The notes beneath the pieces were generated by a model. That model saw only the letters and a list, made by a program, of their open reading frames with translations, was not told the DNA's origin and ran no database searches. 7,035 nucleotides of DNA from Acidobacteriota bacterium (GTDB lineage: Bacteria > Acidobacteriota > Terriglobia > Terriglobales > Acidobacteriaceae). The translations under genes were made by a program, and so were the position numbers. The DNA lies in NCBI GenBank assembly GCA_021781255.1, contig JAJXXG010000549.1:1-7035 (forward strand), in the 5' to 3' direction. This document shows, in pieces, positions 716-7,035 of this stretch (its first letter is position 1; every line of letters starts with the position of its first letter).

Positions 716-917
716 TGGACGATAGGACTCGGTCGCAGGCTGGGAAGTTGTGAGTGTCAGAATGTCGGAGAGACCCGAAAAATACGTACTTAGTCCGGCT
801 AAAGTCCGGAGAAACGCTGCGATTGAACGGAAATTCGCGGGGTTTTCACGGTCTGTTGATGAGTGGACGGCGATACTGAAACCGCAGATTGAGCGGATCA
901 GGAGGACGACCGACCCT
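716..917. other. leader region between LOG and PHP genes
   Basis: This 202-bp stretch has lower GC and more rare-looking codons (AGA, AGG, ATA) than the genes on either side, so I read it as non-coding leader. It contains the 7-mer agtccgg twice, at 792-798 and 803-809, spaced one helical turn (11 bp) apart, and an AGGAGG at its 3' end. I see no convincing -35/-10 pair and no terminator hairpin. If translation of the PHP gene really began at the GTG at 750, most of this would instead be coding sequence for 56 extra residues. Confidence 0.45.
900..905 (+). promoter_or_regulatory. Shine-Dalgarno AGGAGG for the PHP-domain gene
   Basis: A perfect AGGAGG lies 12 nt before the ATG at 918. The spacing is somewhat long, but it is the strongest ribosome site in the region and favours 918 over the GTG at 750 or the ATG at 762. 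The GTG at 750 has only GGGAAG two bases upstream, which is too close to serve it. Confidence 0.5.
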
Positions 918-2081
918 ATGCCATCAACCTCGATCTCATATCTTTGGCGCGACCCTCGCCCCGTTGAAAAATACTCAACAGGCGTTTCGCTGCACAGCCA
1001 CACGAACCAGTCGCAGGAGACGCTTTCCTTTGTGGCGGACTGGACGGCGCAATATGGGTTTGTGCGTCCGCTGATGCGATATCTGGATCGGCGATCGTGG
1101 GATCGTCATGGCATCCGCATTGACTGGCTGCGCAGCTACTGGACGCCGCCGCTGACGCCCAAGCTGGCGTGGGATCTGGAAAGCGGCCAGATCGAAAAGC
1201 TGGGGCTGCGCTCGCTGGTCTCCATCACGGATCATGACGACATTCGCGCACCGTTGATGTTGCGGACGATGGACCGTTCGCAGCATGTGCCGATCTCGGT
1301 CGAGTGGTCGGCACCCTATAGTGAGGTGCAGTCGTTTCACATCGGTGTGCATAATCTGCCAAGTGCGCGAGCGGCGGAGTGGATTGCCAGGTTGAACGCG
1401 TTTACGGCGAATCCGGCGGACGAACAACTGGGCGAGATTCTGGCGGAACTGAATCAGGAACGCGATGTGCTGGTGGTGTTGAACCATCCGATGTGGGATT
1501 TGTATCTGATCGGGCGGGATCGCCATAACTTTCTGGCGAATGAGTTTCTGCTGAAGTACGGCAACTATTTTCACGCACTGGAGCTGAACGGGCTGCGGAA
1601 CTGGGCGGAGAATCGCGCGGCGCGGCGGCTGGCCGAGCAGTGGAATATGCTGCTGGTGGCGGGCGGCGACCGGCATGGCGTGGAAGCGAACGCGAACATC
1701 AACCTGACGAATGCGAGCAGCTTCACGGAGTTTGTGCACGAGGTGCGCTACGAGCGGCGCAGCGAGGTGCTCTTCATGCCGCAGTATGCTGAGCCGTGGA
1801 AGATGCGCATTCTGCAATCGACGATCGATGCGATACGGGATTTTCCAGAGTTTCCCCTGGGTTCGCAGTGCTGGGATGATCGCGTCTTTCATCCGGATGC
1901 CAGCGGCGAGATTCGCCCGTTGAGCGCGATCTGGCCGCGGGGTCAGGCACCGCGCTCGATGCGGATGATTCTGGCAACGGCACGGTCGCTGGGTCGGCGT
2001 CCGCTCAGCTCGAGTCTGCGCTATGCGTGGAGTGATGCCGACGAGCTGCGCTTTGAACTGGGCGAGCGCGAGACGGCCTAA
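918..2081 (+). CDS. PHP-domain metal-dependent phosphoesterase-like protein
   Basis: This is a 387-residue protein with the ordered metal-ligand motifs of a PHP (polymerase and histidinol phosphatase) domain. These are HSH at 26-28 (within LHSHTN), TDHDD at 104-108, E129 within SVEWS, H141 and H145, NHP with H190, and a C-terminal DxH, D251 and H253 within GGDRHG. These residues normally bind two or three Mn, Zn or Fe ions for phosphoester hydrolysis. The protein is cytoplasmic as far as can be seen, with no signal peptide or membrane span. The substrate is unknown; the protein is longer than minimal PHP phosphatases, with an insert of about 75 residues between the first two motifs and a C-terminal extension after about 260. 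The start was chosen from the AGGAGG at 900-905 and the compositional change there; starts at GTG 750 (443 residues) or ATG 762 stay in frame and are possible. It sits between a LOG-type gene and a glycosyltransferase, so a role in nucleotide or glycoconjugate metabolism is a guess. Confidence 0.85.
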   Translation: MPSTSISYLWRDPRPVEKYSTGVSLHSHTNQSQETLSFVADWTAQYGFVRPLMRYLDRRSWDRHGIRIDWLRSYWTPPLTPKLAWDLESGQIEKLGLRSLVSITDHDDIRAPLMLRTMDRSQHVPISVEWSAPYSEVQSFHIGVHNLPSARAAEWIARLNAFTANPADEQLGEILAELNQERDVLVVLNHPMWDLYLIGRDRHNFLANEFLLKYGNYFHALELNGLRNWAENRAARRLAEQWNMLLVAGGDRHGVEANANINLTNASSFTEFVHEVRYERRSEVLFMPQYAEPWKMRILQSTIDAIRDFPEFPLGSQCWDDRVFHPDASGEIRPLSAIWPRGQAPRSMRMILATARSLGRRPLSSSLRYAWSDADELRFELGERETA

Positions 2082-2201: not shown

Positions 2202-3464
2202 ATGTCTTCTCTCTCCCTCACCGCGCAGTTGCCGCGCGTGGCGTATTTCCCTGATTCGTTTCATGAGGTGAATGGAGTGGCGCATACCAGTCGCCACTTT
2301 GAAGCCTTTGCGCGAAGGCGAAATCTGCCGTTTCTGTGTGTGCGAGCCGGGGAGCGCAGCCCGGCGCTGCGGCGAGAAGGCAATGTGTGGACTCTGGAGC
2401 TGCCGCGCGGGGTGCTTTCATTTGCACTGGAGAAAGATCTGAGCTTCGATCCGGCGTATGCTCGCCACATTCCGGCGATTGGCGACGTGCTGGAAGAGTT
2501 TGCGCCAACGCTGGTCCACATCACCGGGCCGAGCGAACTGGGAATGCTGGGCGCGGCGGTGGCCGCGCAGCATGGTTTGCCGTTGGCGGCAAGCTGGCAC
2601 ACGAATGTGCACGAGTATCTGGCGCGGCGATCGGAGTGGCTATTTAAGCTGTTGCCAGGCGAGCAGCCGCGCACGGCGAGCCGCATGGTGGAAGAGTGGA
2701 CGCTGGCGGCGACTGCGCAATTGTATGCACGGGCGCAGGTGCTGTTCGCGCCGAGCGAGGCGCTGGGTGAGCAGTTGACCGGGCTGACCGGACGACCATG
2801 CCATCGTATGCCGCGCGGCGTGGATACGAGCCTGTTCACTCCGGCGCGGCGGCGGCGCCAGTCGGAAGCTTTCACGCTGGGGTTTGTGGGTCGGCTGTCG
2901 GTGGAGAAAAACGTGGCGTTGCTGGCGGCGATTCACGATCAGCTTCATGCAGCCGGGCTGCGGGATATTCGGTTTGTGGTGGTGGGCCAGGGAAGCGAAG
3001 AGGCGATGCTGCGCGAACGGATGCCGGATTCGGAGTTTGCCGGCGTGTTGCGCGGTGAGGCGCTGGCGGCAGCATACGCGGCGATGGACCTGTTTGTATT
3101 TCCGTCGCATACCGATACCTTTGGCAATGTGGTGCTGGAGGCGTTGGCCTCAGGAGTGCCGACGGTTGTGACGCCGGATGGCGGCCCGGCGACGATTGTG
3201 CGCGAGGCAGCGCGTGTAGTGGGAGGACCGGTGGGATGCATTGCGCCGGATGCGGAATTTGCAGCGGCGGTTGAAGCGCTGGTGGAAGGTCCGGAGCGGC
3301 TGGCGGTGATGCGGGCCAATGCGCGCAGGTTTGCGCTGACAGCCACCTGGGATGCGGTCTTCGAGGGCGTGTATGAGGGCTACGGCGATGCGCTGCGAGG
3401 GGAAGCGGGGAACCGTGTGGAAGCGATGCCGGTGAGCGAAGCGACGGCGCGGCTCAGCGCATGA
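2202..3464 (+). CDS. GT4-type (GT-B fold) glycosyltransferase
   Basis: This 420-residue protein has both halves of a GT-B glycosyltransferase. The N-terminal acceptor domain begins PRVAYFPDSF and carries the NGVAHT loop at 24-29, which is typical of the family. The C-terminal nucleotide-sugar domain shows PRGVD at 204-208, FVGRLSVEKN at 228-237, VVVGQG at 259-264, and PSHTDTFGNVVLEA at 301-314. The catalytic EX7E motif appears as D305-X7-E313. The TDTFGNVVLEA form is that of lipid-directed mannosyl- or sulfoquinovosyl-transferase-like GT4 enzymes, so transfer of a sugar to a glycolipid or polysaccharide precursor is a reasonable inference; donor and acceptor are unknown. No membrane segment is seen, as usual for peripheral GT-B enzymes. 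AGGAG at 2191-2195, six bases before the ATG, fixes the start. The last 11 bases overlap the convergent end of accD. Confidence 0.92.
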   Translation: MSSLSLTAQLPRVAYFPDSFHEVNGVAHTSRHFEAFARRRNLPFLCVRAGERSPALRREGNVWTLELPRGVLSFALEKDLSFDPAYARHIPAIGDVLEEFAPTLVHITGPSELGMLGAAVAAQHGLPLAASWHTNVHEYLARRSEWLFKLLPGEQPRTASRMVEEWTLAATAQLYARAQVLFAPSEALGEQLTGLTGRPCHRMPRGVDTSLFTPARRRRQSEAFTLGFVGRLSVEKNVALLAAIHDQLHAAGLRDIRFVVVGQGSEEAMLRERMPDSEFAGVLRGEALAAAYAAMDLFVFPSHTDTFGNVVLEALASGVPTVVTPDGGPATIVREAARVVGGPVGCIAPDAEFAAAVEALVEGPERLAVMRANARRFALTATWDAVFEGVYEGYGDALRGEAGNRVEAMPVSEATARLSA

Positions 3465-4299
3465 AGTCCAGGGCGCGGGCGATGTAACCTTTGAGTTCGG
3501 CGCGTGGAACGACGGCGTCGAGGAAGCCATGTTCGAGCAGGAACTCTGAGCGCTGGAAGCCTTCGGGGAGCTTCTGGCGGATGGTCTGCTCGATGACGCG
3601 CGGTCCGGCGAAGCCGATGAGCGCGCCAGGTTCAGCGATGTTGAGGTCGCCGAGCATGGCAAAGCTGGCGGTGACGCCGCCGGTGGTCGGGTCGGTGAGC
3701 ACGCAGAGGTAAGGCAGGCCCAGGTCGTCCATTTGCGCCAGGCCGGTGGCGATCTTGGCCAGTTGCATGAGGCTGACAACGCCCTCCATCATGCGCGCGC
3801 CGCCGGAAGCGGCAAGAATGATGAGCGCGCTGCGCGTCTCCAGGCAGCGGTCGATGGCGCGGGCGATGGTCTCACCCACAACCGCGCCCATGCTGCCGCC
3901 GATGAAGCTGTATTCCATGGCGCTGACGACGACCGGATGCGGGCCGATGTGTCCAACGGCGTTGACGATGGCGTCGCGCAGGCCGGTCTGATGCTGGGCA
4001 GCGGCGAGACGTTCACGGTAGGGCTTGCGATCGACAAACTGAAGCGGATCGGTGGATTCAAGATTCCCATCGACGAGGGTGTAACCCGGCTCCAGCAGAT
4101 GGGCAATGCGCTCTCGCGCACCCATCTTGAAGTGGTAGCCGCACTTGGGACAGACGTTCAGATTCGCTTGAATGTCGGCCTTGAAGAGAATCTGGCGGCA
4201 GCCGTCGCATTTGGTCCACAGACCTTCCGTGCGGACGCGTGACTCTTCGCTTTCCGCCGCACCCTCTACGCTGGAATCTGCTCGCTTGAACCAGGACAT
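3454..4299 (-). CDS. accD: acetyl-CoA carboxylase carboxyltransferase, beta subunit
   Basis: AccD, with AccA, moves the carboxyl group from carboxybiotin on the carrier protein to acetyl-CoA, giving malonyl-CoA for fatty acid synthesis in the cytoplasm. The 281-residue length is normal. The N-terminal zinc ribbon is intact with C31, C34, C50 and C53 (CX2C-X15-CX2C), after a short acidic linker. The crotonase-like carboxyltransferase core follows: GGSMGAVVGE at 134-143, SGGARM at 165-170 (oxyanion and CoA site), and DPTTGGVTAS at 203-212. It is the last gene of the minus-strand run, 39 bp after the cupin gene, and its stop overlaps the end of the glycosyltransferase gene on the other strand. 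The ribosome site is poor (GGGTAGG only two bases before ATG). accD is more often found beside folC or trp genes, so this neighbourhood is not the usual one. Confidence 0.97.
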   Translation of the reverse strand: MSWFKRADSSVEGAAESEESRVRTEGLWTKCDGCRQILFKADIQANLNVCPKCGYHFKMGARERIAHLLEPGYTLVDGNLESTDPLQFVDRKPYRERLAAAQHQTGLRDAIVNAVGHIGPHPVVVSAMEYSFIGGSMGAVVGETIARAIDRCLETRSALIILAASGGARMMEGVVSLMQLAKIATGLAQMDDLGLPYLCVLTDPTTGGVTASFAMLGDLNIAEPGALIGFAGPRVIEQTIRQKLPEGFQRSEFLLEHGFLDAVVPRAELKGYIARALDFMR

Positions 4300-4308
4300 A
4301 ACCTACCC

Positions 4309-4314
4309 ATTGTA
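4309..4314 (-). promoter_or_regulatory. possible -10 element for accD
   Basis: On the minus strand TACAAT (five of six to consensus) ends nine bases before the accD ATG. I see no good -35 at 16-18 bp; the nearest resemblance, CTGACG, is 22 bp away and overlaps the cupin stop. If used, transcription would begin only a few bases before the ATG, giving a nearly leaderless mRNA, which would fit the weak ribosome site. Confidence 0.22.
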
Positions 4315-4338
4315 CCGGACGAACGGCCCGGGCCGACG

Positions 4339-5282: not shown

Positions 5283-5741
5283 TCAGTGGCCGCCGTGATA
5301 GGGGTGTCCAGCCAGAATTGTACATGCGCGGTAGAGCTGCTCGGCGGCCACGAGCCGAGCGAGTTCGTGAGCCATTGTGATGGCGCCAAAAGAGAGCTGA
5401 AGCTGGGCCTGGGTGCGTGCTGCTTCGGACCAGCCGTCGGGAGGCCCAATGGCGAAGACGAGGTGCTGCGCGCCGGAGTCGCGCCGGGCACCGAGCCAGG
5501 CGGCGAACTGCTCGGAGCGGAACGTGCGCCCGCGACTGTCGGCCAAAGCAAGTGTGGCGGGGGAGCGGGCGTGCTGGCGCGTAAACCAGGCGAGAAGCTC
5601 ATCCTCAGTCCGGAAAAGCTGGGTGCTCGCGGGGTGGTAGGGCTGGATGCGCTCGACGTAAAGGGCTGTGAGCGTCTCAAACGCGGCCTTTGCTCCGGTG
5701 CGCTGGGTGCGCGCGCCAATGTGGGCGAGGGTGATCTGCAT
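5283..5741 (-). CDS. rlmH: 23S rRNA (pseudouridine1915-N3)-methyltransferase
   Basis: RlmH is a small SPOUT methyltransferase that methylates pseudouridine 1915 (E. coli numbering) in helix 69 of 23S rRNA, using S-adenosylmethionine on assembled ribosomes. The 152-residue length is near the normal 155-160. Recognisable parts are the start MQITLAHIGA, LALADSRGRTFRSEQFA at 64-80, the cofactor-loop equivalent FAIGPPDGW at 96-104, AEQLYRA at 133-139, and the C-terminal HPYH at 146-149. The ATG at 5741 was chosen because RlmH proteins begin directly with this first strand; in-frame ATGs further upstream (for example 5819) would add unrelated residues. The cofactor loop differs from the usual IGGPEGL (Gly to Pro) and the TLPH segment reads TMAH, so the protein is somewhat divergent. 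It is the first gene of the minus-strand run. Confidence 0.93.
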   Translation of the reverse strand: MQITLAHIGARTQRTGAKAAFETLTALYVERIQPYHPASTQLFRTEDELLAWFTRQHARSPATLALADSRGRTFRSEQFAAWLGARRDSGAQHLVFAIGPPDGWSEAARTQAQLQLSFGAITMAHELARLVAAEQLYRACTILAGHPYHGGH

Positions 5742-5875: not shown

Positions 5876-6754
5876 ATGCCCATCGTAGCTGGAGTGGACT
5901 TTGGCACGCTGAGCGTGCGCGTGACGCTGGTACACAGTGAGCGTGGACCGATTGGAACGGCTTCGTCGGAGTATCCGTTGCACCGCCGCCGTGAAGATCC
6001 GGACTTTGCCACGCAGTCGCACGACGAGCAGATGCGCGCACTGGTGCGGGCAATGCGCGCCGTGCTGGAGCAGACAGGAATTGCCGGCGAAGGTGTGGCG
6101 GCGCTGGCACTGGATACGACCGGGTCAAGCGTGATTGTGGTGGATGGCGAGATGCGTCCGCTGGACGACTACTACCTGTGGTGCGATCATCGCGCCCACG
6201 CTGAGGCGGCGGAGATTACCGCGAAGGCGCACGCGATGAAGCTGGAGGCGATCGACTGGTGCGGCGGCGTCTATTCGCATGAGTGGGGATTTGCCAAGCT
6301 GCTGCACTGGCTGCGGCACAATCCGGAGCAGCGCGCGCGGCTGGGAACGGCGTTGGAGCACTGCGATATGGTGGCCGCGACGCTGTGCGGCGTGACCGAG
6401 CCAGCCAGGGTGCGGCGGAGTGTCTGTGCGATGGGGCACAAGTGGCTGTGGAATCCCCGCTGGGGAGGATTTCCGCCGGAGGAGTTTCTGGTCGCGGTCG
6501 ATCCGCTGCTGGCGGGGGTGCGAGAGAAACTGGCCGGAGAGTTCCTGACCTCGGATCGCGTGGCGGGACACCTGAGTGCGGAGTGGGCCGAGGCGCTGGG
6601 CCTTCATGCCGGGATTCCGATTCCGGTGGGCGCCTTTGACGCGCACTGGGATGCGGTTGGCTCGCACATTCGCGAGGGTGATGTGGTGAATGTGGTGGGC
6701 ACCTCGACGTGCATCATTGCGATGGCGCGTGAGGCGCGGCTGGTCCCGGGTGTG
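5876..6754 (+). CDS. araB: ribulokinase, N-terminal part, 3' end replaced
   Basis: Ribulokinase phosphorylates L-ribulose with ATP to L-ribulose 5-phosphate in L-arabinose use. Residues 1-293 are a good FGGY-kinase N-terminal domain plus the beginning of the second. They include DFGT at 8-11 (phosphate binding), DTTGSS at 80-85, the sugar-binding YLWCDHRA at 100-107, GAFDAHWDAVG at 252-262 with D255 as the expected catalytic base, and GTST at 275-278. After LVPGV at 289-293 a ribulokinase would continue with something like CG and about 260-270 more residues of the ATP-binding lobe (normal length about 550). Instead the same frame continues as a different enzyme. The start is supported by GAGG at 5867-5870. 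As read, this product cannot be an active kinase. No araC, araA or araD is visible in the window. Confidence 0.85.
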
Positions 6755-6763
6755 CCGAGCCCG
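6740..6763 (+). other. chimeric junction between two unrelated genes
   Basis: Upstream codons encode ribulokinase up to LVPGV; downstream codons encode PGVPSP of the isocitrate/isopropylmalate dehydrogenase family. PGV (bases 6746-6754) fits both families, so the exact point is ambiguous within about 10 bases. Codon endings shift from mainly G to mainly C. No insertion sequence, inverted repeat or target duplication is present at the join. Confidence 0.8.
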
Positions 6764-7035
6764 ATCGTCGGCGCCGATCAGCACGGCATCGATCTCATCG
6801 TCATCAGGGAATCCACCGAAGGCCTGTTTGCGTCGATGGGCAAGGGCGTCGTCACCGATACCGAAGCACGCGAGACGCTGGTGATCACGCGCAAGACCTC
6901 CGAGCGGCTGTTCGAATTTTCCTTTCACCTCGCCGAGCGCCGCAAGGCGCGCGGCCGGCCGGGCAAGCTGAGCTGCGTAGACAAGGCGAATGTATTCAAG
7001 GCCTTCGCCTTCTTTCGCAAGATGTTCGATGAAGC
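6755..7035 (+). CDS. isocitrate/isopropylmalate dehydrogenase-family protein, internal fragment
   Basis: In frame with the ribulokinase, 93 complete codons plus two bases belong to the beta-decarboxylating dehydrogenase family (isocitrate, isopropylmalate, tartrate/malate types), which oxidise 2-hydroxy acids with NAD(P) and release CO2. The evidence is PGVPSP at the join, IDLIVIRESTEGLF (chimera residues 305-318) with the substrate-binding Arg of the IRES/TEG motif, and VDKANVF at 368-374, whose Lys370 matches the family catalytic lysine. The first 100 or so residues of a normal protein are missing, and the C-terminal metal-binding and NAD-binding parts lie beyond the window. The RESTEGLF form resembles the less studied 'isocitrate/isopropylmalate dehydrogenase family' proteins rather than classical LeuB or Icd; the exact substrate cannot be assigned. 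Codon choice (ATC, GTC, CTC, TCC) is unlike the rest of the window and suggests another source genome, perhaps an alphaproteobacterium. Confidence 0.8.

Follow-up and report, generated by a model that had tools for sequence, protein, structure and literature searches.

Results

The window, by which we mean the whole stretch of 7,035 nucleotides that was analysed, has genes cut at both of its ends. Close to its right end lies a frame of 386 codons on the forward strand (5876-7033), which starts with the ATG at 5876 and stays open to the window end with no stop; the list of open reading frames starts the same frame at an upstream TTG (5837). The frame begins as a ribulokinase (AraB) and continues as a beta-decarboxylating dehydrogenase, the switch falling at codons 287-293. 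The features on which the analysis turns are the following.

5283..5741, minus strand: RlmH-type SPOUT methyltransferase gene, divergent neighbour of araB (PF02590, 4.9e-32)
5876..6732, plus strand: beginning of an acidobacterial L-ribulokinase gene (araB), coding for the N-terminal FGGY lobe alone (protein and DNA identity)
6733..6754, plus strand: join, 22 bases that fit both parents, of which 6734-6754 encode ARLVPGV (block counts over 80 loci)
6755..7035, plus strand: fragment from within a gene of the isocitrate/isopropylmalate dehydrogenase family, Bradyrhizobium type, truncated at the window end (protein and DNA identity)

In the frame, Pfam places FGGY_N on residues 4-172 (1.5e-21) and Iso_dh on residues 284-386 (2.6e-11), and has no match to the C-terminal FGGY lobe (FGGY_C) anywhere in it. 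Among NCBIfam models, the ribulokinase model PRK04123 extends to residue 294 (3.5e-89), and past this point the matches are to LEU3_arch, tartrate and isocitrate dehydrogenase-type models (6.2e-14 and weaker). A preliminary description of this DNA had reported one open frame of at least 386 codons passing from a ribulokinase to an isocitrate/isopropylmalate-type dehydrogenase; both family databases agree with it, and its coordinates were right. Its statement that the ribulokinase lacks the ATP-binding lobe fits the missing FGGY_C match, and where it had the dehydrogenase losing its first 100 or so residues, we find about the first 115 missing, with the refinement that the far end is also cut, by the window end. 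The frame is neither an L-ribulokinase with both FGGY lobes (its best NCBIfam score is 300 against a cut-off of 428) nor a protein with a full-length Iso_dh domain, as the match covers profile positions 100-203 of 348 and the far end is lost at the window end. Judged by what the frame encodes, neither half should work, as had been proposed, the kinase being without its second lobe and the dehydrogenase without its beginning.

The left half is closely related to acidobacterial ribulokinases. A protein search with the whole frame scored at least 8000 candidates; the best 120, which were listed, have the two FGGY domains but lack Iso_dh, and the top ones, most of them 524-539 amino acids long, show 88-90% identity across 78-79% of the query. 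To one ribulokinase of 524 amino acids (P0001) the identity is 90% over 79% of the frame, and two named ribulokinases among the matches listed come from Acidicapsa (76-78%). At the DNA level, 5876-6747 is 79% identical to a locus of an Acidobacteria bacterium MAG (L059). The araB gene is whole in this locus and in L058, L062, L063 and L078, with 516-524 of 524 residues aligned.

The right half has other relatives. Residues 292-386 match 6600 proteins, and the best 120 of these carry Iso_dh only, the top identity being 95%; with an Iso_dh protein of 359 amino acids (P0121) this identity holds over all 95 residues. The corresponding DNA, 6733-7035, is 86-87% identical to two Bradyrhizobium loci (L002 and L028). 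In these loci and in L001, L003 and L008 the dehydrogenase is whole (359-360 residues aligned), and the window holds a middle piece of it, about residues 117-209 of 359, bounded by the join and by the window end.

To place the switch we used residues 197-386 (190 amino acids) as a junction query in a scan of a species collection, and kept the best 80 of 554 places. Eight of these loci match the left side and are titled Acidobacteriota, all as MAGs and two of them from a bog; the remaining 72 match the right side, and of these 63 bear Bradyrhizobium titles and 9 those of other Alphaproteobacteria. Each of the 80 aligns either to residues 1/2 to 104-110 or to residues 84 to 189/190 of the query, that is, to one side and the common stretch, and none matches both sides beyond that stretch. 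The switch was first seen on 11 loci and was then counted in blocks, without gaps, over all 80. Bases 6713-6732 agree at 15-18 of 20 positions with the eight acidobacterial loci and at 7-10 with the 72 alphaproteobacterial ones; for bases 6755-6774 the counts are 5-7 and 16-20 of 20, and for the 22 bases between (6733-6754) they are 13-18 and 14-20. The two halves thus belong to different phyla, Acidobacteriota and Alphaproteobacteria, and over the 80 loci the change from one to the other is abrupt, as in a chimeric contig. The separate taxonomy of the halves, which the preliminary description had named as a check, gives Acidobacteriota on one side and Alphaproteobacteria, mostly Bradyrhizobium, on the other.

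The join lies in sequence that the parents have in common at the protein level, again as in a chimeric contig. ARLVPGV occupies residues 287-293 of the frame (6734-6754), so that the PGV which the preliminary description had placed at the crossover, as common to both families, is residues 291-293 within it. P0001 has ARLVPGV at 287-293 and P0121 has ARLIPGV at 110-116; among the 182,854 heptamer pairs of these two proteins ARL(V/I)PGV alone reaches 6 or more identities in 7, and it is again the sole such pair when P0001 is compared with P0122, P0123, P0124 and P0144. A join on the single best heptamer is unlikely by chance, and we therefore infer that this likeness guided the joining. The test was made on protein because, among the longest common DNA words of 28 gene pairs of relatives (4 acidobacterial by 7 Bradyrhizobium, same strand), the junction ranks among the first four segments of one pair only (L075 with L002). 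The true parental strains would have had an exact common word of k-mer length. A search of viral contigs for the exact 39-base junction word gave 0 matches, which is weakly informative.

The rest of the window looks like a single acidobacterial locus up to the join, as pieced together from several relatives, none of which has it whole. Of the other seven genes, all but the one at 750-2081 match Pfam families; the six encode a LOG-type protein, a glycosyltransferase of family 4, AccD, a cupin, CobO/BtuR and RlmH. The divergent rlmH/araB pair is also present at the edge of L059 (rlmH residues 1-56 only, 71%), which supports the left side as a genuine acidobacterial locus. Over the first four genes the window is colinear with a genome of the same family as that of L059 (G831; DNA identity 77.7% over 2-2079 and 76.6% over 2230-4335), in which the AccD protein is 91% identical; accD has matches in 144 of the 150 genomes of this family. 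Neither accD nor cobO has a match in the genome of L059 itself (G001), the nearest on the left. In a further genome (G905), accD, cupin, cobO and rlmH follow in the order of the window, accD and the cupin gene being about 3 kb apart. The examined stretches of G831 and G905 are without araB and the dehydrogenase. CobO is 84-87% identical in three of six acidobacterial genomes and has no match in the other three, G001 included; in two of six Bradyrhizobium-side genomes it is 44-45% identical.

Some details of this part of the window are worth recording. The 443-amino-acid protein encoded at 750-2081 (plus strand) has no Pfam match at E 0.001 and is 84% identical in G831; it is a protein conserved in acidobacteria without an assigned family, and may be a PHP-type metallo-phosphoesterase. 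The glycosyltransferase gene (2202-3464, plus strand) and accD (3454-4299, minus strand) overlap by 11 bases at their stop ends (3454-3464), and their order and orientation are kept in G831. In that genome (L108, 4914-8799) the likeness to the window stops just after accD, where an HNH-like and a ligA-like frame (named by eye) stand in contrast to the cupin-cobO-rlmH-araB order of the window.

We then looked for the same fusion elsewhere. Among the best 120 and 120 proteins listed by the two protein searches none joins both halves; a two-domain protein should lead both lists. The junction query was also run against the 12 genomes behind 12 of the loci, 396 Acidobacteriota genomes and 391 genomes of the Bradyrhizobium-side family (at least 4 genomes were searched twice), and gave some match at E 0.001 in 12 of 12, 333 of 396 and 349 of 391, with no kinase-dehydrogenase fusion among the matches listed in any of the three sets. 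Among the matches listed, the left side scores 182.8 bits at best and the right side 198 bits; a fusion should score far above these values and head the list. Listed spans that cross the middle of the query are weak in the 12 genomes (for example 35%, 47.3 bits, residues 37-162; 30%, 21.2 bits, residues 41-186), and in the 396 Acidobacteriota they follow ribulokinases (58-61%, from residue 1 to 132-135). On the dehydrogenase side, the best identity among the matches listed is 45% in the 396 Acidobacteriota, in contrast to 90% in the Bradyrhizobium-side family.

Plasmid records were searched with the protein of the whole frame, and 453 match, 27 of them with one place covering at least 80% of the query. 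Of the 20 listed of these 453, 19 are annotated as ribulokinase and one is without annotation, and none of their alignments extends past residue 345. Three (H14, H27 and H29, all among the 27) pass the join at 58-60% identity; considered as fusions, they were set aside as ordinary ribulokinases running on. A DNA search of plasmids with the right half gave 13 records, mostly of symbiotic Rhizobium and Sinorhizobium. Eleven of the 13 also carry a ribulokinase (by the 20 listed of 453), 15-40 kb away where compared. A rhizobial plasmid carrying both genes was rejected as the source, its ribulokinase being only about 65% identical, against 90% for the acidobacterial left half.

Discussion

The apparent fused enzyme is most probably an inter-species chimera, formed in assembly or in library PCR at a common short word, and neither a protein nor a gene fusion. 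A chimeric assembly had already been put forward as the likeliest cause, and the origin of the halves in two phyla, together with the lack of a fused relative among the matches listed, supports it. The last 280-300 bases of the window would come from another organism than the remainder: either the path of an assembler or a change of template during library PCR would have led from an acidobacterial ribulokinase gene into a Bradyrhizobium-like dehydrogenase gene, crossing at the stretch of about 22 bases (ARLVPGV) that would be alike in both genes by chance. The open frame would be luck, given that ARLVPGV stands in the same register in both genes. The switch was presumably made during computation or library making rather than in a living cell. 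The cut genes at both ends and the MAG titles of the acidobacterial loci indicate that the window is probably a contig from an environmental metagenome; the join is 281-302 bases from its end, which would make about one read or insert.

Some observations count against a chimera. The frame is open across the join, which a random join gives about 1 time in 3 at most. Third-position GC is nearly the same in the two halves (0.766 and 0.811), and neither GC nor third-position GC shows a useful step. The junction, furthermore, is not the longest common DNA word in the relatives, as the count of 1 in 28 pairs makes plain.

A real rearrangement, in which Bradyrhizobium-like DNA acquired by horizontal transfer recombined into an acidobacterial araB at the 22-base microhomology and left a dead gene, would likewise place the join on common sequence, as microhomology-mediated joining also does. 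We nevertheless regard it as improbable: no such fusion appears among the matches listed in the 396 Acidobacteriota genomes, in the 80 loci kept or in the proteins listed, the foreign part comprises the last 280-300 bases of the window only, and the dehydrogenase half, at 86-87% DNA identity to Bradyrhizobium, has an open frame with no sign of decay. A true bifunctional or regulatory family joining an FGGY kinase to a beta-decarboxylating dehydrogenase, for which the open frame would speak, has next to no probability: both enzymes are cut inside their domains, which makes a working fusion enzyme very unlikely; the relatives with the same fusion or domain order that the preliminary description called for were looked for, and not one independent homolog with this order is among the matches listed for proteins, plasmids, loci and genomes; and a single search of 5.39 million open papers gave none that has ribulokinase, isopropylmalate dehydrogenase and fusion protein together.

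The frame at 5876-7033 adds no new protein. As an inter-species chimera it is a clean example of one that passes the usual checks, with an open frame, a plausible start and two known domains, and such a chimera could find its way into protein databases under the guise of a new domain architecture. What gives it away is the taxonomic placement of each half, together with the position at which the switch occurs.

Compared with AraB (FGGY kinases; PRK04123/TIGR01234), the first 293 or so residues of the frame align with the N-terminal part, but the frame leaves this family before the second lobe, with no FGGY_C match. Compared with the Iso_dh family (PF00180), where JGI names many of the relatives 3-isopropylmalate dehydrogenase, the identity of residues 292-386 to P0121 is 95%, but the piece is without about the first 115 residues, and about the last 150 are lost at the window end. 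The closest likeness is to chimeric metagenome contigs. According to passages in PMC7299287, assembly graphs are linked by common k-mers, also through sequencing errors, and chimeric contigs result; according to PMC7881036, species of low to intermediate coverage are drawn into such contigs more often. The window resembles them in having two phyla joined at a short common stretch near a contig end, and differs from those in the passages of PMC7299287 in that the partners there are closely related species, whereas here they belong to different phyla.
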